From IMG/VR virus record IMGVR_UViG_3300046787_000508, positions 124,001 to 188,000 of that record: DNA of 64,000 nt, one strand, 5' to 3'. Of the stretch, positions 32,707-40,233 are shown one piece after another. The position numbers were made by a program, and so were the translations under genes. The notes below the pieces were generated by a model. That model made no database searches, was not told the DNA's origin, and was given only the letters and a program-made list of their open reading frames with translations. This DNA comes from a virus. Position 1 is the first letter of the stretch, and each line of letters opens with the position of its first letter.

Positions 32707-32712
32707 CAAATT

Positions 32713-32784
32713 GGAATATAGCTCAGTTGGTTAGAGCGTCATCCTGATACGGTGAATGTCGATGGTTCGAGTCCATCTATTCCA
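32713..32784 (+). tRNA. tRNA-Ile (GAT)
   Basis: Complete cloverleaf; anticodon loop CTGATAC; T loop TTCGAGT; CCA not encoded. Confidence 0.9.
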
Positions 32785-32792
32785 ACAACAAT

Positions 32793-32865
32793 GGTGATGT
32801 AGCTCAGATGGTAGAGCGCTACCCTGAAGAGGTAGGCGTCGGCGGTTCGAGTCCGTCCATCACCA
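32793..32865 (+). tRNA. tRNA-Phe (GAA)
   Basis: Complete cloverleaf; anticodon arm CTACC-CTGAAGA-GGTAG. Confidence 0.93.
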
Positions 32866-32869
32866 CAAT

Positions 32870-32943
32870 GACCTCGTAGCTCAGTTGGTTAGAGCACCTC
32901 ACTTTTAATGAGGGAGTCAATGGTTCGAGTCCATTCGGGGTCA
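32870..32943 (+). tRNA. tRNA-Lys (TTT)
   Basis: Complete cloverleaf; anticodon loop CTTTTAA; acceptor GACCTCG/CGGGGTC. Confidence 0.93.
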
Positions 32944-32949
32944 CAATAT

Positions 32950-33021
32950 GCTGCGGTAGTGAAGAGGTTAACACGTATCACTTTCTATGATAAGGCCGGG
33001 GTTCGATTCCCCGTCGCAGTA
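32950..33021 (+). tRNA. tRNA-Glu (TTC)
   Basis: Anticodon arm TATCA-CTTTCTA-TGATA; T arm CCGGGG-type stem with TTCGATT. A second Glu (TTC) gene is at 36351. Confidence 0.88.
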
Positions 33022-33027
33022 CAAAAT

Positions 33028-33096
33028 ACAAATTAGGCTAAGGTAGCCAAATGGTCTCCAAAACCATAGGAGAAAGTTCGATTCTTTCAATTTGTG
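33028..33096 (+). tRNA. tRNA-Trp (CCA)
   Basis: Acceptor ACAAATT/AATTTGT perfect; anticodon arm ATGGT-CTCCAAA-ACCAT. Confidence 0.9.
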
Positions 33097-33152
33097 CAAA
33101 ATATAAATTATGAAAAAGAAATTTGATATGCATTAGGTTAAATTCCTAATAT

Positions 33153-33374
33153 ATGAAACCGTTCAAAAACAAAGTAAGTCAAACGACAACTCACAACAAA
33201 GAGTATAAAATAGTAACAAACGATAAATTCGACCCATATTGGGATGAAGGATATAATTTTTATCCGAGATATCGTAGAGGGTATAAGAACCCAAATAAAT
33301 GTATAATGAGTTTTCAAATTAGAATGTATCGAACTTGGAAACATAATAGAAAAACACAATGGAGAATAATGTAG
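33153..33374 (+). CDS. Hypothetical basic protein between tRNA blocks
   Basis: 73 residues, rich in Tyr/Arg/Asn (FDPYWDEGYNFYPRYRRGYK). Overlaps the next gene by 16 bases. A preceding 9-codon frame (33110-33136, MKKKFDMH then TAG) is in another frame and may be a leader. Function unknown. Confidence 0.55.
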   Translation: MKPFKNKVSQTTTHNKEYKIVTNDKFDPYWDEGYNFYPRYRRGYKNPNKCIMSFQIRMYRTWKHNRKTQWRIM

Positions 33375-33781
33375 AGGGATTTAAGTTAAAGGCCGAAGCT
33401 CAACTTATCCAAATCAGAGAGGAAAGAAAAAAGAGGGTAAAGGAGTATTGGGAAAATCTCCCCAAGATTGTTACTCCAAACGATGTCCCTGAATTACCAA
33501 GAGTAGATATTCAGGAATGGAAAGATTTCTACGTCCCAAAATTAATTGAGGCGGGAGCAATTGGTAAGGACGATTTGATTGAAGGTCAAATTTACATTGG
33601 TGAACATAGAAGAGCGAATGTTGCTAAATGGAACGGAAATGAATTCATTTACAATAGAGAGAAATTTGGAAACGTTTATGAAGATAAATGTAACCACTTT
33701 GAAGATGATGATGGGTTCGCTTTATTTGTTCCAATTAGATTTGGTACTGAGGAAGAATATAAGCAAAATTGTTTACAATAA
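33359..33781 (+). CDS. Hypothetical protein between tRNA blocks
   Basis: 140 residues, acidic. IEGQIYIGEHRRANVAKWNG-type strand pattern in the middle and a highly charged helical N-terminus. No recognised motif. It probably overlaps and couples with the gene before it. Confidence 0.65.
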   Translation: MENNVEGFKLKAEAQLIQIREERKKRVKEYWENLPKIVTPNDVPELPRVDIQEWKDFYVPKLIEAGAIGKDDLIEGQIYIGEHRRANVAKWNGNEFIYNREKFGNVYEDKCNHFEDDDGFALFVPIRFGTEEEYKQNCLQ

Positions 33782-33790
33782 ACAATAAAG

Positions 33791-33862
33791 GGTCTCTTGG
33801 TGTAACGGATAACACGGAACACTACGAATGTTTTGTTAAAGGTTCGAATCCTTTAGAGACCT
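33791..33862 (+). tRNA. tRNA-Arg (ACG)
   Basis: Acceptor GGTCTCT/AGAGACC perfect; anticodon loop CTACGAA. Confidence 0.9.
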
Positions 33863-33869
33863 CAAATAA

Positions 33870-33941
33870 GTCAGGTTGACCGAGTTGGTAAGGTGAAGGT
33901 CTGCAAAACCTTTTACGTTGGTTCGAATCCAACACTTGACT
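33870..33941 (+). tRNA. tRNA-Cys (GCA)
   Basis: Anticodon arm AAGGT-CTGCAAA-ACCTT; acceptor GTCAGGT/ACTTGAC with one wobble. Confidence 0.92.
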
Positions 33942-33950
33942 CTAATATAT

Positions 33951-34024
33951 GGTGATTGTAGCTGAAATGGTAAAGCACCTGATTGTGGTTCAGGCGATTG
34001 TGGGTTCGATTCCCACCTTTCACA
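33951..34024 (+). tRNA. tRNA-His (GTG)
   Basis: Anticodon arm CCTGA-TTGTGGT-TCAGG; the extra 5' G expected for His is available. Confidence 0.85.
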
Positions 34025-34031
34025 CAAAAAT

Positions 34032-34112
34032 TGCGGGATGTCAGAAGATGGTATCTGGGGAGTCTCATAAGCTCTTGCGTAAGCCTCGTGGGTTCGAGTC
34101 CCACTCCCGCAA
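34032..34112 (+). tRNA. tRNA with CAT anticodon and long variable arm
   Basis: Acceptor TGCGGGA/TCCCGCA is perfect and the T arm normal. The anticodon loop CTCATAA gives CAT, but the variable region (TTGCGTAAGCC) is long with a CTT/AAG mini-stem, like class II tRNAs (Leu, Ser). The amino acid is therefore uncertain: Met, Ile (modified C) or an altered Leu/Ser tRNA. Confidence 0.7.
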
Positions 34113-34150
34113 CCATTTACAATGATATTTATATTCGGTAAATTATTACT

Positions 34151-34969
34151 ATGGAGTATAAATGTCAATATTGTAATGAAATGTTTGTTTTTGAAAAAAA
34201 ACAACAAGCGGGAGCTCACGTAACTAACTGTTCTATGAATCCCAAAAAAAAATTAATGACCGAGAAAAGGTTATTAAGTAAGGACCAAGTAAAAATAGAT
34301 AGAGTATTAAATTGTGAAAGATGTAATCAGGAATATACAATTAATATAACCAACCATCTATTCTCAATTGGTGATTATAAAAAACATTGTTCAAGAAAAT
34401 GTGCAAACAGTAGAACACAAAAAGAAGAAACAAAAAATAAAATATCGGAATCGGTTAAAATGTGGTTTGAAAAACCTGAAGTTAAAATAAAATTATTAAA
34501 AGATAAATCAAAATATAGAAGAAATAGAAAATGTCCATCTTGTAATGATGATTTTTTAACATTAAAATCGTCAAAACAAAAATATTGTTCATTGAAATGT
34601 GCAGGTTCCGCCGGAGGTAAAAACTCTAAACAGGGGAAAAGGAGTTTAAATGAAATTATGTTTTTTGAATTATGTAGTGAACATTTTGAAGGTGTAATGT
34701 CAAACGAAAACGCGTTTAATGGTTGGGACGCTGATGTTATTCTACCAAATGAAAAAATTGCAGTTTTATGGAATGGAATTTGGCACTATAAAAAAATAAT
34801 GAAAAAACATTCATTAACCCAAGTTCAAAATAGGGATATGATTAAAATAAAGGAAATAAAAAAATTAGGGTTTAAACCATATATAATAAAAGATATGGGT
34901 TCACATAATCCAGAGTTTGTGAATGAACAATTTATTATTTTTAAAAAATATTTAGAAAATATTTTGTAA
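34151..34969 (+). CDS. Zinc-finger homing-endonuclease-like protein (Vsr/EDxHD type)
   Basis: 272 residues. Three Cys-rich zinc-finger parts (CQYCNEMF...; CERCNQEY...HCSRKC; CPSCNDDF...YCSLKC, to ~157) precede a Vsr-like nuclease core: GKRSLNEIMFFELC, WDADVILPNEKIAVLWNGIW and HYKKI...QNRDMIKIKEIKKLGF. This family includes free-standing homing endonucleases. Its place inside the tRNA block suggests a selfish insertion. A TATTTATA box is just upstream. Confidence 0.75.
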   Translation: MEYKCQYCNEMFVFEKKQQAGAHVTNCSMNPKKKLMTEKRLLSKDQVKIDRVLNCERCNQEYTINITNHLFSIGDYKKHCSRKCANSRTQKEETKNKISESVKMWFEKPEVKIKLLKDKSKYRRNRKCPSCNDDFLTLKSSKQKYCSLKCAGSAGGKNSKQGKRSLNEIMFFELCSEHFEGVMSNENAFNGWDADVILPNEKIAVLWNGIWHYKKIMKKHSLTQVQNRDMIKIKEIKKLGFKPYIIKDMGSHNPEFVNEQFIIFKKYLENIL

Positions 34970-34993
34970 ATTAAAAAATAAATATTACATTTG
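34964..34993 (+). promoter_or_regulatory. Bacteroidota-type promoter for the initiator tRNA block
   Basis: TTG at 34964, 19-nt spacer, TACATTTG at 34986-34993, 31 bases before the initiator tRNA. Confidence 0.75.
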
Positions 34994-35024
34994 TACAAGA
35001 ATTAAATGTTCATTGAAAATATAT

Positions 35025-35096
35025 CGCAGGGTAGAGCAGTGGTAGCTCGGGAGGCTCATAACCTCTAGGTCGTCAGTTCGAATCTGGCCCCTGCAA
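35025..35096 (+). tRNA. Initiator tRNA-fMet (CAT)
   Basis: The 5' C cannot pair with the 3' A (C1-A72 mismatch), the hallmark of bacterial initiator tRNA; the body closely follows the initiator pattern (AGAGCAGTGGTAGCTCG, CTCATAA loop, CCCCTGCAA end). The anticodon stem GGAGG/CCTCT has two rather than three consecutive G-C pairs at the loop. Confidence 0.88.
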
Positions 35097-35098
35097 CA

Positions 35099-35144
35099 AA
35101 ACATAAGATTAATTACCTTATGTATGGAAGGTTCGAAACTTCCG
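35099..35144 (+). ncRNA. Two hairpins, the second with a T-loop-like sequence
   Basis: ACATAAG/CTTATGT (7 bp perfect) followed by GGAAG-GTTCGAAA-CTTCC, which imitates a tRNA T arm without a tRNA around it. Confidence 0.45.
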
Positions 35145-35145
35145 A

Positions 35146-35259
35146 TTGATTATGGTGTAAAGGTGCACGGCAGAACGGAGTAGGAATACGAAAAGCATTG
35201 AGCTTTCGTCGGTTCCGAAAGGGGAAACAGGATTATGGTTCGAATCCATTTTAGTCAAC
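35146..35259 (+). ncRNA. Oversized tRNA-like RNA (Gln-like)
   Basis: About 114 nt. Acceptor TTGATTA/TAGTCAA, Gln-type D region (ATGGTGTAAAGGT) and T arm ATGG-TTCGAAT-CCAT are intact, but the middle ~65 nt does not form a standard anticodon arm; it holds a long hairpin around CGAAAAGCATTGAGCTTTCG whose loop contains TTG. Either an interrupted or degenerate tRNA-Gln or a tRNA mimic. Confidence 0.55.
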
Positions 35260-35261
35260 TA

Positions 35262-35387
35262 TTGTAATTGACATAACGTCCTTAGCGGGAGAGCTTAGTA
35301 TATTACGGATAATCCTTCGGTAATTTACGATATGGTAACGTAGAAACAAGAGTAAGAGGATTTGAGTTCTACCTATGTTAGTTACAA
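35262..35387 (+). ncRNA. Structured spacer RNA closed by a 14-bp stem
   Basis: TTGTAATTGACATA (35262-35275) pairs with TATGTTAGTTACAA (35374-35387) with only two G-U pairs. Inside are further hairpins (GTAGAAAC / GTTCTAC). It fills exactly the space between the tRNA-like RNA and tRNA-Asp and has no convincing reading frame. Confidence 0.5.
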
Positions 35388-35392
35388 TTTTT

Positions 35393-35465
35393 GGGATTGA
35401 GGTCAAACGGTTAAGATGTCGCCCTGTCACGGCGCACGGAGCGGGTTCAACTCCCGTCAGTCCCG
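35393..35465 (+). tRNA. tRNA-Asp (GTC)
   Basis: Anticodon arm with loop CTGTCAC; acceptor GGGATTG/CAGTCCC. Confidence 0.9.
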
Positions 35466-35673
35466 CAAATGAGTAAGAGATACTCAATGATTTGGCATCG
35501 TTCGAAATAATGATGTAGTTGTTTCCTTCCACGATTTTATAGAGGGGGTCTCGGAATATGGTCGTAACAAAACTACCGAGTATGTTTGACGTTTTAAGCG
35601 GTAAGACGCGATGGGTTTTTCAATACGAAAAACTGTGAATATCTACCTCGAAATAATCTCATCGGGGACAATT
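35466..35673 (+). ncRNA. Structured spacer between tRNA-Asp and tRNA-Ser
   Basis: Hairpin CATCGTT/AATGATG near the start, then TTGTTTCC (35519) pairing with GGGGACAA (35664), enclosing CTCGG/CCGAG and GTTTTTC/GAAAAAC hairpins. The closing stem ends 2 nt before tRNA-Ser. No gene is visible. Confidence 0.45.
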
Positions 35674-35759
35674 GGAAGGATGGCAGAGTTGGTCGATTGT
35701 ACCTGACTTGAAATCAGGCGTACTGCAAGGTACCGTGGGTTCGAATCCTACTCCTTCCG
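35674..35759 (+). tRNA. tRNA-Ser (TGA)
   Basis: Class II tRNA; anticodon arm CCTGA-CTTGAAA-TCAGG and long variable arm GTAC..GTAC. Confidence 0.92.
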
Positions 35760-36033
35760 CAATTCGACGACATTTAGGGTGATTTAGTATCTAGATTACT
35801 CTTTGTAACGATTACGGAAGTACACATTTATTTGTGTTAAACGTTAAGTTCGACAGGTAGAAACTAAGTGGTTCGGAATTTGACTGAAACAAGGTGACTT
35901 GGTCTTTGAAGTATTCAAACGATTTATCGTTGTAGGTACTGAATAACAAGAAGATAAACTAAGAACATCATCGTATGAAGTTTACCTAGAGAAATTTATA
36001 AAACGATGACTGCTCGGAAAGACGGGCTCATTT
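35760..36033 (+). ncRNA. Structured spacer without a gene
   Basis: 274 nt with several inverted repeats: ACACA/TGTGT, AACGAT/ATCGTT, and CATCGT (35969) with ACGATG (36003). No reading frame of note. Similar in size and style to the other inter-tRNA spacers. Confidence 0.4.
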
Positions 36034-36145
36034 AATTAGGTGGCGGAATTGGTAAACGTAGAGATGTTGAAGTTTAGGTATCACTATGATTAAGTTCAGA
36101 AACTTGACCTAATGCTCTAAACAGGTTCGAATCCTGTCCTGATTA
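36034..36145 (+). ncRNA. Oversized tRNA-like RNA (Leu-like)
   Basis: 112 nt. Acceptor AATTAGG/CCTGATT, Leu-type D region (TGGCGGAATTGGTAAACG) and T arm ACAGG-TTCGAAT-CCTGT are intact. The middle holds TAGAG/CTCTA and AAGTT-CAGA-AACTT pairings instead of a normal anticodon and variable arm, so about 25 nt are extra. Confidence 0.55.
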
Positions 36146-36350
36146 CAGGTCGTCTTTTTATATTGCTCCCGTTTGTGAGTTAACTTTATAGACGTAAAAC
36201 TTAAAGTAATGAAAATCATTCCCTTCTGGAGTTGACGGTAAAACTATCCAGTCCTGTTCCTTACCGAAGGAGTTTCCGGACGTTAATATGAAACTCAAAC
36301 GACAGTGAAAAGTAGGGACTTATAAGTTTTACCTGAACTTGTCCCGAATT
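36146..36350 (+). ncRNA. Structured spacer before tRNA-Glu
   Basis: GTAAAACTTA (36194) pairs perfectly with TAAGTTTTAC (36323); internal GGTAA/TTACC and CGTTT../..AGACG stems. No gene is visible. Confidence 0.45.
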
Positions 36351-36422
36351 GGCCCGTTCGACTATCGGTTAGGTCGTCAGGTTTTCATCCTGGAAAGAGG
36401 GGTTCGACTCCCCTACGGGCTA
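36351..36422 (+). tRNA. tRNA-Glu (TTC), second copy
   Basis: Anticodon arm CAGG-TTTTCAT-CCTG; acceptor GGCCCGT/ACGGGCT. Confidence 0.9.
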
Positions 36423-36436
36423 CTAAATTTAATGAA

Positions 36437-36628
36437 ATGAAAAAGTTAATTTTATTATTGGTTGTGATGTTTAGTATGAGTGGTTGTTATACCACATATA
36501 GAACGCCACAAAGACACAATGGACTTAGACCTTTATGGTATAATCCAAGAACTCATCAAGGACCGTTTTATAATCATCCAAGACCAAGAAACATGAGACC
36601 ACATTTCAATCCAAGAAATCGTTGGTAA
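36437..36628 (+). CDS. Small lipoprotein rich in Pro/Arg/His
   Basis: 63 residues: lipoprotein signal MKKLILLLVVMFSMSGC and a mature part of Pro, Arg, Asn, His and aromatics (YNHPRPRNMRPHFNPRNRW). Function unknown. Confidence 0.6.
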   Translation: MKKLILLLVVMFSMSGCYTTYRTPQRHNGLRPLWYNPRTHQGPFYNHPRPRNMRPHFNPRNRW

Positions 36629-36656
36629 CATTTGACTTTTTAATATTTTATTAGTA

Positions 36657-36663
36657 TATTTAT
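36657..36663 (+). promoter_or_regulatory. TATTTAT box before the Pth2-like gene
   Basis: TATTTATATTATT leads into the ATG at 36670, which supports that ATG as the true start and so places the TAG at codon 5 inside the gene. Confidence 0.5.
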
Positions 36664-36669
36664 ATTATT

Positions 36670-36999
36670 ATGAAACAACATTAGACACATAGACTTATAA
36701 CCGTAACGAGAAAAGATATTTCTCCGGGTTATCAAATTGCACAATCGGGGCATGCAATTGCACAATTCTTTTTAGACCATCCCGATTTATCTAAAAAATG
36801 GAACAACAACTATCTTATTTCGTTGTCCATAGATTCCGAACAAAAATTACATAAACTTTTTACCGACTTAATTGAGTGTGGAATATCCGTATCCGTGTTT
36901 AACGAACCAGATATTGATAATCAACTAACGTCACTGTGCTTCCTCGAAACGGGAGATACAAAAAAATACACACATAAACTTAAATTATCTTTAAATTAA
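36670..36999 (+). CDS. Pth2-like peptidyl-tRNA hydrolase with in-frame TAG at codon 5
   Basis: Reading from ATG 36670 to TAA 36997-36999 gives 109 codons if the TAG at 36682-36684 is decoded. The product matches the Pth2 fold: RKDISPGYQIAQSGHAIAQF is the nucleotide/tRNA binding start of that family, followed by LISLSIDSEQKLHKLFTDL and GISVSVFNEPD. Pth2 frees tRNA from aborted peptidyl-tRNA. No ATG, GTG or TTG offers a start after the TAG before the core. A CTA-anticodon tRNA lies at 37576, so amber decoding is plausible; a mutation or assembly error is the alternative. Confidence 0.7.
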
Positions 37000-37108
37000 G
37001 AAACCATGAAATAGATACGACCACCGAACTAAACTTAATAAAGTAAAAAATGCTCGATAAAGGCATCAACTTTATCATTAAACAATAACTTTATTAAATT
37101 TAAACAAA

Positions 37109-37447
37109 ATGAAAAAATACACAAATAACCCAACACAAATGATTAAATGTACATTCTCTAACTCAGTTCATAAAATATTAGAACCTAATATCGATATTAA
37201 AAATCGTGAAAGATGGAGAAAAGAAAATCGTGACAAATACAATTTCACTGATGAACAAAAAATAGAAATGTTCGATAAGATAATGAAAATACATAAAGAA
37301 ACATCTAATGAATTAACATCTTATCAATTTGATAGGAGAGACAAAAAAAGGTTACACGCTGACCGTGTCGCTCGAGGTTATAAATTTAAAACAAAAACCA
37401 AAAAGGAAGAATATGAAAAAAATATTCAGAAAGATTTGGTATTATAA
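37109..37447 (+). CDS. Hypothetical basic helical protein
   Basis: 112 residues, strongly basic and helical (NRERWRKENRDKYNFTDEQK). No motif recognised. It lies between the Pth2-like gene and the suppressor tRNA and could bind RNA, on charge alone. Confidence 0.6.
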   Translation: MKKYTNNPTQMIKCTFSNSVHKILEPNIDIKNRERWRKENRDKYNFTDEQKIEMFDKIMKIHKETSNELTSYQFDRRDKKRLHADRVARGYKFKTKTKKEEYEKNIQKDLVL

Positions 37448-37466
37448 AAAATAAACAATACATTTG
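37436..37466 (+). promoter_or_regulatory. Bacteroidota-type promoter for the suppressor tRNA
   Basis: TTG at 37436, 20-nt spacer, TACATTTG at 37459-37466. Confidence 0.7.
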
Positions 37467-37470
37467 TATT

Positions 37471-37573
37471 ATAATTTACAACCAAAGAGACATTGACTTA
37501 GTAACCCAGTGGAGGCACACATAAACTGTATTAGTGAAAAGTTGAGGTGATAGACCACCATGTTGTAAATTAT
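37471..37573 (+). ncRNA. Structured leader closed by a perfect 12-bp stem
   Basis: ATAATTTACAAC (37471-37482) pairs perfectly with GTTGTAAATTAT (37562-37573). It begins at about the expected transcription start of the promoter and ends 2 nt before the suppressor tRNA. Confidence 0.55.
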
Positions 37574-37575
37574 TT

Positions 37576-37647
37576 GTCCTGTTAGTGTAGTGGTAGCACG
37601 AAGGTCTCTAAAACCTTTAAGGGTCGGTTCGAGTCCGACACGGGGCA
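37576..37647 (+). tRNA. Amber-suppressor tRNA (CTA)
   Basis: Acceptor GTCCTGT/ACGGGGC, D arm AGTGTAGTGGTAGCAC, anticodon arm AAGGT-CTCTAAA-ACCTT giving CTA, T arm GTCGG-TTCGAGT-CCGAC. It reads UAG. The arm GGT-CTCTAAA-ACC differs by one base from the Trp pattern (CTCCAAA), so descent from tRNA-Trp is possible; Gln is the other candidate. The amino acid cannot be fixed here. Confidence 0.9.
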
Positions 37648-37672
37648 CAAAAATAAAAAAAATAAAAAATAT

Positions 37673-37703
37673 TTGTTTACTATTGATATTTTTTGTAAAT
37701 TTG
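37673..37703 (+). promoter_or_regulatory. Bacteroidota-type promoter for the mini-gene at 37721
   Basis: TTG at 37673, 20-nt spacer, TAAATTTG at 37696-37703. Confidence 0.7.
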
Positions 37704-37720
37704 CATATACTTATTAAACG

Positions 37721-37828
37721 ATGAAGAATATAAATAACATATTGACGAGTACGAGACCCCTTAACAATGGTAATGGGTATGGTGTGCAACCGTTAAGTTA
37801 CTTATGTTCGGATATTATTGAGATGTAA
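37721..37828 (+). CDS. Mini-gene of 35 residues
   Basis: 35 residues (MKNINNILTSTRPLNNGNGY and then GVQPLSYLCSDIIEM) with its own promoter and a strong terminator at 37848. The arrangement repeats that at 32418-32632. It could be a small effector or a leader peptide; no family is recognised. Confidence 0.45.
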   Translation: MKNINNILTSTRPLNNGNGYGVQPLSYLCSDIIEM

Positions 37829-37847
37829 ATAAATTTTACAATTATAA

Positions 37848-37886
37848 ATCAACCCGAACAAATTAAAAAAATGTTCGGGTTTTTTG
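37848..37886 (+). terminator. Terminator after the mini-gene
   Basis: AACCCGAACA / TGTTCGGGTT hairpin followed by TTTTTTG. Confidence 0.85.
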
Positions 37887-37914
37887 TTTTAATTAAATTT
37901 TATTATTACATTTG
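37884..37914 (+). promoter_or_regulatory. Bacteroidota-type promoter for the Leu-Asn tRNA block
   Basis: TTG at 37884, 20-nt spacer, TACATTTG at 37907-37914. Confidence 0.7.
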
Positions 37915-37947
37915 TAACGTAGTTCATTGACATTCTGAGAAAGTAAC

Positions 37948-38032
37948 GCCCGGGTGGTGTAATGGTAGCCACGAGGGACTTAAAATCCCTTGGACAGAAA
38001 CGTTCGTGCCGGTTCGAGTCCGGCCCCGGGTA
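37948..38032 (+). tRNA. tRNA-Leu (TAA)
   Basis: Class II; anticodon arm GGGA-CTTAAAA-TCCC; acceptor GCCCGGG/CCCGGGT. Confidence 0.9.
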
Positions 38033-38080
38033 CGAAGCTTAGTTCACACTATACTCGCGAAGAGGAGGAAGTGTATTTTT

Positions 38081-38154
38081 GGTTCCATAGCTCAATTGGA
38101 TAGAGCAACACACTTCTAATGTGTAGGTTTCAGGTTCGACTCCTGATGGAATCA
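38081..38154 (+). tRNA. tRNA-Arg (TCT)
   Basis: Anticodon arm ACACA-CTTCTAA-TGTGT; acceptor GGTTCCA/TGGAATC. Confidence 0.93.
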
Positions 38155-38212
38155 CACCGGTGGTAGTTTTGAGGTTGACGAATTCTACATAAAAAAAATA
38201 ATTCATCCACTA

Positions 38213-38285
38213 CTAGGTGTGGGAAAGTTGGTAATCCGCGTGGTTTGGGACCACGAGACCGTAGGTTCGAGCCCTACCACTTAGA
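38213..38285 (+). tRNA. tRNA-Pro (TGG)
   Basis: Anticodon arm CGTGG-TTTGGGA-CCACG; acceptor CTAGGTG/CACTTAG. A hairpin (GGTGGTAGT...ACTAC) precedes it directly. Confidence 0.9.
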
Positions 38286-38362
38286 CGAGATGGTGATAAC
38301 CAATCAGCAGCCAAAATGTATACAGAAATGCTGGAGGTGACAAACGGGGAGAGACCCGTACA

Positions 38363-38444
38363 TACCCGAGTGGTGGAATGGTATACACAGCGGTCTTAGA
38401 AACCGTGTCGAAAGGCGTGTCGGTTCGAGTCCGACCTTGGGTAC
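38363..38444 (+). tRNA. tRNA-Leu (TAG)
   Basis: Class II; anticodon arm GCGGT-CTTAGAA-ACCGT; acceptor TACCCGA/TTGGGTA. Confidence 0.9.
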
Positions 38445-38451
38445 GAAAATT

Positions 38452-38523
38452 GGCCTTGTAGCTCAGTGGTAGAGCAGTTGACTGTTAATCAACTGGTCGT
38501 TGGTTCGAATCCAACCGGGGCCT
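38452..38523 (+). tRNA. tRNA-Asn (GTT)
   Basis: Anticodon arm GTTGA-CTGTTAA-TCAAC; acceptor GGCCTTG/CGGGGCC. An interrupted second Asn gene is at 43314. Confidence 0.93.
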
Positions 38524-38589
38524 CAAAAAGTTTAACCATATAAGGTTGAATAAGATGACAGACGAAAGTTATCTCTTGAGGGTAAAATG

Positions 38590-38655
38590 AAAAGATTGGT
38601 AGAGTGGTACTACGGGGTGACGGCCCAAACGCAGGTTCGATTCCTGTATCGAAGT
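38590..38655 (+). ncRNA. Partial tRNA-like fragment
   Basis: A D-arm-like GTAG-AGTGGTA-CTAC and a good T arm GCAGG-TTCGATT-CCTGT flank a poor anticodon arm. The following TATCGAAGT finds its complement ACTTTGATA only downstream, just before tRNA-Tyr. A degenerate tRNA is the simplest reading. Confidence 0.35.
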
Positions 38656-38717
38656 AATTTGAGAGTAAAGGTAAAAGGTATTAATAGCGGTCTAAAAACT
38701 GGGTTAAACTTTGATAT

Positions 38718-38799
38718 GGGAGCATCGCATAGCGGCAATTGCAGAAGACTGTAAATCTTCCCTCTTTCGAGTTCGTAGGTTCGAGTCCTACTGCTCCCA
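38718..38799 (+). tRNA. tRNA-Tyr (GTA)
   Basis: Class II-type long variable arm; anticodon arm GAAGA-CTGTAAA-TCTTC; acceptor GGGAGCA/TGCTCCC. Confidence 0.93.
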
Positions 38800-38813
38800 C
38801 AAAAAAACAAATT

Positions 38814-39467
38814 ATGGCAACATTAGAAACACAGTACAAGGATTTTTTGGTTAAAAACCCAAGTTCAACGTTTACATTTGAAGAATGGAAAAACGACCAC
38901 GGGGTTAAGATTGCAAATGCAGTTGAACGTTCTTCCTCACTTAAGAAAATTATTGATGAGATTAGAACACCCGAATACAAGGAAAGGAGATTAAAAGAAA
39001 AAAAAGAAAGTAAAGAAAGATTAACCGCCGAGTATCAGTTTGGATATTATGTTGGTGAAGAAATTGTGACAAGGCATTTACCAACGATTACAACAGATAT
39101 GATAAAGTCTCGTAATCAAATTAAAGTTTCGGATGAAGACACTGAAGAAAACAAACGTATACATGACCTATGGTGGGAGAGTGGAAAATATGGTTCCAAT
39201 CCTGACGATGTGGTTAATAAAGAAACTTGGAAATTATATCGACAACATATGGTTATGTTGGAAAAGAAGTATCTCCCAAATCCTTTAAAATGTAATATTG
39301 ATTTATTAAATATTCGTGACGAGAAAGATTTTAAAGATGGGTTAATCCATTCGTTGTGGAATTGTGATATGTGTACTTACAGTTTAAAACCTGAAGACAT
39401 TAAGATATACGATGATGAAGATATGTGGTTTACCATCATTGAATTTATCCTAAGAGACGAAGAATAA
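38814..39467 (+). CDS. Hypothetical protein between tRNA genes
   Basis: 217 residues, highly charged and helical, from the ATG at 38814 (an earlier ATG lies inside tRNA-Tyr). DLWWESGKYGSNPDD and LIHSLWNCDMCTYSLKPEDI are notable aromatic/Cys stretches, but no family is recognised. It starts 15 bases after the tRNA and ends 7 before the next one. Confidence 0.7.
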   Translation: MATLETQYKDFLVKNPSSTFTFEEWKNDHGVKIANAVERSSSLKKIIDEIRTPEYKERRLKEKKESKERLTAEYQFGYYVGEEIVTRHLPTITTDMIKSRNQIKVSDEDTEENKRIHDLWWESGKYGSNPDDVVNKETWKLYRQHMVMLEKKYLPNPLKCNIDLLNIRDEKDFKDGLIHSLWNCDMCTYSLKPEDIKIYDDEDMWFTIIEFILRDEE

Positions 39468-39473
39468 TAGTTT

Positions 39474-39547
39474 GGACTTGTAGCTCAGTTGGTTAGAGCA
39501 CCGCACTCATAATGCGTAGGTCCCTGGTTCGAGCCCAGGCTGGTCCA
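39474..39547 (+). tRNA. tRNA-Met or tRNA-Ile2 (CAT)
   Basis: Standard class I tRNA; anticodon arm CGCA-CTCATAA-TGCG. Elongator Met or lysidine-type Ile cannot be separated by eye. Confidence 0.85.
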
Positions 39548-39554
39548 CAAAATT

Positions 39555-39631
39555 TGGAAAGTTAGCTCAGTTGGTTCAGAGCACCTCGTTTACACCGAGG
39601 GGGTCGTAGGTTCGAATCCTACACTTTCTAC
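39555..39631 (+). tRNA. tRNA-Val (TAC)
   Basis: Anticodon arm CTCG-TTTACAC-CGAG; acceptor TGGAAAG/CTTTCTA. Confidence 0.9.
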
Positions 39632-39632
39632 A

Positions 39633-39818
39633 ATGTATCAAATGTGCAGTGAAAGTTGATGTAGGCATACATCGGTGAGGTGGGTTCGAATCCCAAGTAA
39701 CAATACCCAATTTGGTGGGGGCCGAGTAACTGATAACACATTATAGCCGATTTTGGGTTGTGCACCTCGTCCGAGAAACCCTAATAGTTCCTAATAGACC
39801 GGTATGGAACTGATACAT
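39633..39818 (+). ncRNA. Structured spacer closed by a perfect 8-bp stem
   Basis: ATGTATCA (39633-39640) pairs with TGATACAT (39811-39818). It begins 2 nt after tRNA-Val and ends 5 nt before tRNA-Thr and contains GATGT/ACATC and a T-arm-like TGGG-TTCGAAT-CCCA hairpin. No gene is visible. Confidence 0.5.
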
Positions 39819-39823
39819 AATTT

Positions 39824-39896
39824 GCCTCCATAGCTCAGTTGGTAGAGCAGCTGATTTGTAATCAGCAGGTCGTTGGTTCGAGCCCGACTGGAGGCT
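39824..39896 (+). tRNA. tRNA-Thr (TGT)
   Basis: Anticodon arm CTGA-TTTGTAA-TCAG; acceptor GCCTCCA/TGGAGGC. Confidence 0.93.
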
Positions 39897-39900
39897 CATA

Positions 39901-39974
39901 AGCAGATGTCGTATAATGGTCATTACTTCAGACTTCCAATCTGAAGATGAGAGTTCGATTCTCTCCATCTGCTC
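39901..39974 (+). tRNA. tRNA-Gly (TCC)
   Basis: Anticodon arm TCAGA-CTTCCAA-TCTGA; acceptor AGCAGAT/ATCTGCT. Confidence 0.92.
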
Positions 39975-40069
39975 TGTCGGTACCCAAAGGGTGAAGGACG
40001 TGGTATGGGACTTGTTCCCTCAAACTCAATACCGTAAGTTGAGCGGCCAATCTACGGGATTGGCTTTAC
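39975..40069 (+). ncRNA. Structured spacer between tRNA-Gly and tRNA-Gln
   Basis: 95 nt with hairpins GGTACCC/GGGT, GGTAT/ATACC and GCCAATC-tacgg-GATTGGC. No reading frame. Confidence 0.4.
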
Positions 40070-40141
40070 TGTTCCATGGTGTAACGGTTAACACTACCGG
40101 TTTTGAGCCGGTCATTTCAGGTTCGAATCCTGATGGGACAA
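40070..40141 (+). tRNA. tRNA-Gln (TTG)
   Basis: Anticodon arm ACCGG-TTTTGAG-CCGGT; acceptor TGTTCCA/TGGGACA. Confidence 0.92.
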
Positions 40142-40145
40142 CAAA

Positions 40146-40231
40146 GGAAGGTTACCCAAGTTGGTGAAGGGGCCTGTTTGCTAAACAGGTAGGGTGTAAC
40201 AGCCGCGAGAGTTCGAGCCTCTCACTTTCCG
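40146..40231 (+). tRNA. tRNA-Ser (GCT)
   Basis: Class II; anticodon arm CCTGT-TTGCTAA-ACAGG; acceptor GGAAGGT/ACTTTCC. Confidence 0.92.
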
Positions 40232-40233
40232 CA

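Follow-up and report, generated by a model that had tools for sequence, protein, structure and literature searches.

Some phages that use the standard genetic code retain suppressor transfer RNAs (tRNAs). The authors who described XacN1 found no target for the CTA tRNA of that phage (PMC5852040), and in the zeta crAss-like phages, which combine CTA tRNAs with a standard code, no target was found either (PMC12386605). PTH2 was noted earlier in jumbo phages, without mention of a stop codon (PMC7824862). Here we analyzed a 64-kb window (bases 124001-188000 of a 202,894-bp IMG/VR virus record) in which the gene for a protein resembling the Pth2 peptidyl-tRNA hydrolases carries an in-frame TAG as its fifth codon and shares a tRNA array with a CTA tRNA (Table 1). 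Comparison of sequences across relatives makes it probable that this Pth2-like gene lies behind a natural switch keyed to the suppressor tRNA.

The Pth2-like gene and its early stop

The gene begins ATG AAA CAA CAT TAG, and its frame is then open up to the TAA at 36997-36999. As the sequence-only reading had stated, there is no alternative start before the conserved core: the next ATG, GTG or TTG after the TAG lies 47 codons downstream, past that core. The same reading took a TATTTAT box to fix the start codon, and the counts agree, since TATTTAT occurs no more than 30 nt upstream of 36 of the 160 open reading frames (ORFs) of at least 100 amino acids, versus ~1.5 expected from its genome-wide count. 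The box is a probable phage promoter with very short leaders. Because it sits 6 nt before ATG 36670, this ATG is the likely start, and as such it is well supported. Across the whole record (G000), TATTTAT is often found 4-8 nt from an ATG. ARAGORN confirmed the CTA tRNA, one base longer than first read, and found no tRNA genes elsewhere in the record outside the array.

The assignment to Pth2, also made in the sequence-only reading, was upheld by profile and structure comparisons. Pfam PTH2 (PF01981) matches 16 of 19 family members, with a best E of 1e-9, and the phage family gives a PDB profile match to 2zv3 (E 6e-11). A PF01981 search of the window's own record gave no match, the window protein scoring just under the cut-off (20.4 vs 23 bits). 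Its structure was predicted with a predicted local distance difference test (pLDDT) value of 93.4, and Foldseek gave template modelling scores (TM-scores) of 0.77-0.80 to M. jannaschii Pth2 and human Bit1. The window protein has the Pth2 fold and belongs to the Pth2 sequence family; the phage family shares its fold with the Pth2 peptidyl-tRNA hydrolases (PF01981; 2zv3, 1q7s) and also has their invariant motif residues Gln, His and Thr.

The first relative to be identified (L009; L numbers denote loci) shows 64% identity; its fifth codon is likewise TAG, and a CTA tRNA lies 1.4 kb downstream. IMG/VR scans raised the relatives to 138 loci in 93 Pth2-like clusters; an alignment of all family members was too diverse to drive a collection scan. 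An early stop, in the form of ATG, zero to four codons and TAG, was present in 55 of the 93 clusters, most often at codon 3 (28 clusters) and less often at codons 4 (14), 5 (7), 2 (5) and 6 (1), and it is retained while the neighbouring codons diverge. In 47 of these 55 clusters a CTA tRNA lies no more than 9 kb from the gene. The CTA tRNAs of L082 and L087, which have an unusual D-arm, were missed by ARAGORN and recovered with a covariance model, and that of LR756511, 8 kb from the Pth2-like gene, was found later. Several clusters scored automatically as having no stop (L044, L101, L144; L078, L124, L138, L139) nevertheless contain an in-frame TAG, either after a longer leader or just before an ATG.

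The early TAG also occurs in the huge phages LR756500-LR756504, LR745206 and LR756511 and in cultured phages, where the genes read MAQ-TAG-NEKTW (GAP32 and CBB), MTH-TAG-NDKTW (pEa_SNUABM_19), ML-TAG-NKHW (Arash) and MT-TAG-IHEN (ME3). In XacN1 and RAS14, both of which carry CTA tRNAs, another domain (phrog_14850) precedes the Pth2 domain in a single fused ORF, whose third codon is TAG and which has a good ribosome site. The relatives RaK2 and Hallingskeid have no in-frame stop in the Pth2-like gene, and no CTA tRNA was found in them. If the TAG were known from this metagenome-derived record alone, it might reflect a pseudogene or an assembly error at codon 5; the sequence-only reading had itself named the second possibility. 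The recurrence of the early stop in dozens of divergent relatives, in many independent records that include sequenced isolates, and the conservation of the protein past the stop refute this explanation and reduce its probability to a negligible level.

Some relatives depart from the common arrangement. A single TAG lies inside the Pth2 domain, mostly just before a conserved Trp and not at the start, in L106-L113, L099, L103 and L010. Pth2-like genes in L062 and L122 have no in-frame start; an upstream ATG lies in another frame, perhaps through a frameshift or sequence error. Probable annotation errors were also seen: CTA tRNAs are labelled Phe and Ser in Arash (L029:5307-5381) and Myrna (L017:4481-4552), and GAP32_397 (L025:3079) is a truncated Pth2-like gene, its TAG having been taken as the stop.

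Stop type, suppressor anticodon and codon context

The in-frame stop matches the anticodon of the linked suppressor tRNA in 47 TAG-CTA, 2 TAA-TTA and 1 TGA-TCA clusters; the probability of this by chance is ~2e-5 if clusters are independent, which they are not fully, and three of the CTA clusters also carry a TTA tRNA. L045 (ATG ACT TAA ATT) and L084 (ATG ACG TAA GTA) each have TTA as the only suppressor tRNA on the locus, and L097, with TGA inside the gene, has only TCA. Tallied by hand, stop versus cognate suppressor gave 61, 8, 7 and 9 (p = 3e-4). Stop type and suppressor anticodon thus appear to change together in evolution.

The base that follows the early TAG is A in 37 clusters and G in 18, a purine in 55 of 55 and never a pyrimidine, whereas only 74 of 140 TAG terminators in these loci are followed by a purine (p 9e-13). 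A 3' purine is known to favour amber suppression, with SupE activity rising 10-fold from C to A (PMC6266110). Among the gated relatives the suppressor tRNAs are of diverse types. A single parental isoacceptor for the CTA tRNAs was rejected on this ground, and because of the same diversity the inserted residue seems unimportant. Such diversity is as expected if only read-through matters, so the arrangement looks like a switch and not like a means of inserting a special amino acid.

We considered whether translation might instead re-initiate. On this reading the stretch from ATG to TAG is a very short upstream ORF, and the protein truly begins at the codon behind the stop (in many cases ATT, in some GTG), comparable to infC with its AUU start. 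That codon is ATT in 23 of the 55 Pth2 clusters and in 25 of 33 cases in a second family, FHFNK, described below; Bxz1- and Myrna-like phages are annotated from the GTG after TAG, and a Shine-Dalgarno site fits that GTG. Among the clusters that have such a site, however, it fits the ATG before the stop in 13 and the codon after it in 3, all mycobacteriophages, and many of the codons that follow the stop are unable to serve as starts, among them ACA (window), AAT (GAP32), AAC (Arash) and ACC (XacN1). Re-initiation also does not predict that the stop type follows the suppressor anticodon or that some genes carry the TAG inside the domain, and it leaves the linked CTA tRNAs unexplained. We regard it as quite unlikely.

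The TAG could also be one among many in a genome undergoing ordinary stop-codon recoding, be it code 15 or an early stage of it. Recoding with CTA tRNAs does occur in phages of gut Bacteroidota (PMC7886860, PMC9523058). Under code 15, TAG is a sense codon in many genes and a rare terminator. In the 203-kb record, by contrast, 200 non-overlapping ORFs end with TAA in 173 cases, TAG in 15 and TGA in 12, and the code 15 pattern was not found. Neither the in-frame TAG density nor the density gain expected of recoding was seen at any locus, a measure that tRNA-rich loci blur, and there was no clear excess of protective second stops after TAG terminators. A scan of the genome for frames that stay open for at least 70 codons behind an ATG, 0-7 codons and a TAG, and that contain no start within the first 12 codons after the TAG, returned the Pth2-like gene as the only candidate without overlap with a longer ORF; three further candidates were rejected because all overlap longer ORFs. 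The stop is restricted to the opening codons of genes from one or two families. Recoding is therefore largely refuted and very improbable. The sequence-only reading had favoured selective, switch-like suppression over recoding, and it is supported by the retention of TAG amid divergence, the agreement of stop with anticodon, the invariable 3' purine and the lack of a stop in RaK2 and Hallingskeid, for which the search gave no CTA tRNA.

The FHFNK family and other features of the window

The FHFNK family appears to be gated in the same manner as the Pth2-like gene. In close relatives its gene directly follows Pth2, with TAG at codon 2-3, and the base after the TAG is a purine in 33 of 33 cases. 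FHFNK genes without Pth2 are usually gated themselves, and ungated ones mostly follow a gated Pth2; in one ungated group (L265-L269, L274) most members have a CTA tRNA nearby and no Pth2 was recognised upstream. In RHph_I1_18, roughly twelve bases separate the end of FHFNK from the CTA tRNA. One IMG/VR scan gave 299 relatives, and family and fold searches against Pfam, PHROG and PDB returned no known relative. FHFNK is a large, uncharacterised phage protein family, some members being about 190 amino acids long, with an early TAG beside CTA tRNAs (L220-L298; L148:3983-4228).

In the window, a micro-ORF directly follows the Pth2-like gene. It is conserved as M-[KR]-TAG-I-(I)R-x-P-[TN]-stop (L009:5338, L039:6333, L145 after 1812), and in L034-L038 and L041-L043 a TAG-gated FHFNK gene occupies its spot. 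The micro-ORF is possibly what is left of the second gated gene, an abbreviated version of it, or a leader peptide. A conserved hypothetical gene lies between the Pth2-like gene and the CTA tRNA (37109-37447 in the window, from about 5420 in L009).

Table 1. Coordinates of the Pth2-like gene and associated features in the 64-kb window
Feature	Position	Strand	Evidence or remark
Pth2-like gene	36670..36999	+	109 residues if TAG is read; Pfam PTH2 E 6e-4, phrog_1866 E 3e-12, structure model
Early in-frame TAG (codon 5), next base A; proposed gate	36682..36684	+	kept in dozens of relatives
TATTTAT promoter-like box	36657..36663	+	6 nt before ATG 36670
CTA-anticodon (amber suppressor) tRNA; proposed key	37576..37648	+	ARAGORN; like neighbourhood in L009 and most gated relatives
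Array of 25 tRNA genes, containing the module	32712..40232	+	ARAGORN
Micro-ORF ATG AAA TAG ATA CGA CCA CCG AAC TAA, own TAG at codon 3	37006..37032	+	kept in L009, L039, L145

Proposed mechanism and comparison with known systems

We propose that translation initiates at ATG 36670 and that ribosomes encounter UAG as the fifth codon. If the phage CUA tRNA is absent, release factor 1 would terminate translation after four residues, with almost no waste and no partial protein. When the CUA tRNA has been produced and aminoacylated, the UAG, with its purine next, would be read through, and the output of Pth2-like protein would be proportional to the input, the activity of the suppressor tRNA. The switch would be gene-specific, consisting of one stop at a free N-terminal position of the Pth2-like gene or its FHFNK neighbour, and the early position would leave the fold untouched whatever residue is inserted. 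Its likeliest purpose may be to adjust the level of a factor that handles peptidyl-tRNA or tRNA to how much active suppressor tRNA is present.

Because the stop comes right after the start and a matching tRNA is usually close by, the gene is probably functional only while the suppressor tRNA encoded by the phage is active, and this in many distantly related large phages. We think it likely that the arrangement is a widespread module in large phages of several host groups. The key would be a dedicated suppressor tRNA, in most cases CTA and rarely TTA or TCA, and the lock a cognate stop near the start of the Pth2-like gene, FHFNK or both, lock and key changing together while the code stays standard.

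In prfB, which encodes release factor 2, an early in-frame stop sets expression through a frameshift and senses that factor. The ORF of 1-5 codons before the present stop might similarly act as a sensor, with ribosomes dropping short peptidyl-tRNAs, low peptidyl-tRNA hydrolase activity being reported and autoregulation following much as in prfB. Its length is that of known drop-off minigenes, and the product has the Pth2 fold. Such a minigene sensor is compatible with a switch keyed to the suppressor tRNA; by itself, however, it requires neither TAG nor a suppressor tRNA that matches the stop, and it does not call for gating of FHFNK, an unrelated gene. We consider it unlikely.

Several observations weigh against the suppressor-keyed switch. 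The TAG is present in LR756504, LR745206 and LR756502, in which no CTA tRNA was detected even with the covariance model. Conversely, in six clusters (L083, L088, L091, L093, L094, L104) Pth2 lacks a stop although a CTA tRNA is present, and Lak phages (L016, L018, L019) have a TTA tRNA ~0.6 kb upstream of the Pth2-like gene and no gating stop. The mycobacteriophage ribosome site fits the GTG after TAG, a plausible start. Most terminators in L045 and L084 are TAA, and because of this an efficient ochre suppressor should be costly there. Charging of the suppressor tRNAs by host synthetases is an assumption of the mechanism. Pth2 peptidyl-tRNA hydrolases have a conserved, catalytic Lys in the GK motif, whereas the phage family mostly has Tyr at the aligned position. 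Because this Lys is replaced, we claim for the protein the Pth2 fold, not the status of an active Pth2.

A literature search covering open PMC papers found no report of a suppressor-gated Pth2-like gene. The papers on XacN1 and the zeta crAss-like phages ask what role phage suppressor tRNAs have under the standard code, and a specific candidate target gene in cultured phages is now named. For XacN1, we propose ORF364 as the target of the CTA tRNA; when its translation begins at an upstream ATG (L024:2431), the third codon is TAG. The switch would explain why phages with an ordinary code keep stop-reading tRNAs and points to a form of translational control in which expression depends on how much of a single tRNA is supplied. 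It also exposes a gene missed or truncated by annotation, and yields in FHFNK a second protein family under the same proposed control.

The combination of a standard code with retained suppressor tRNAs is shared with XacN1 and the zeta crAss-like phages. The resemblance to the recoding of crAss-like and Lak phages (code 15 with a CTA suppressor tRNA) lies in the probable reading of in-frame TAG by a CTA tRNA of the phage itself; in those phages TAG is reassigned in many genes, whereas here the code is standard and the TAG is found among codons 2-6 in one or two gene families. With prfB the locus shares an early in-frame stop in a translation-factor gene, but here the key is likely a suppressor tRNA and not a frameshift.
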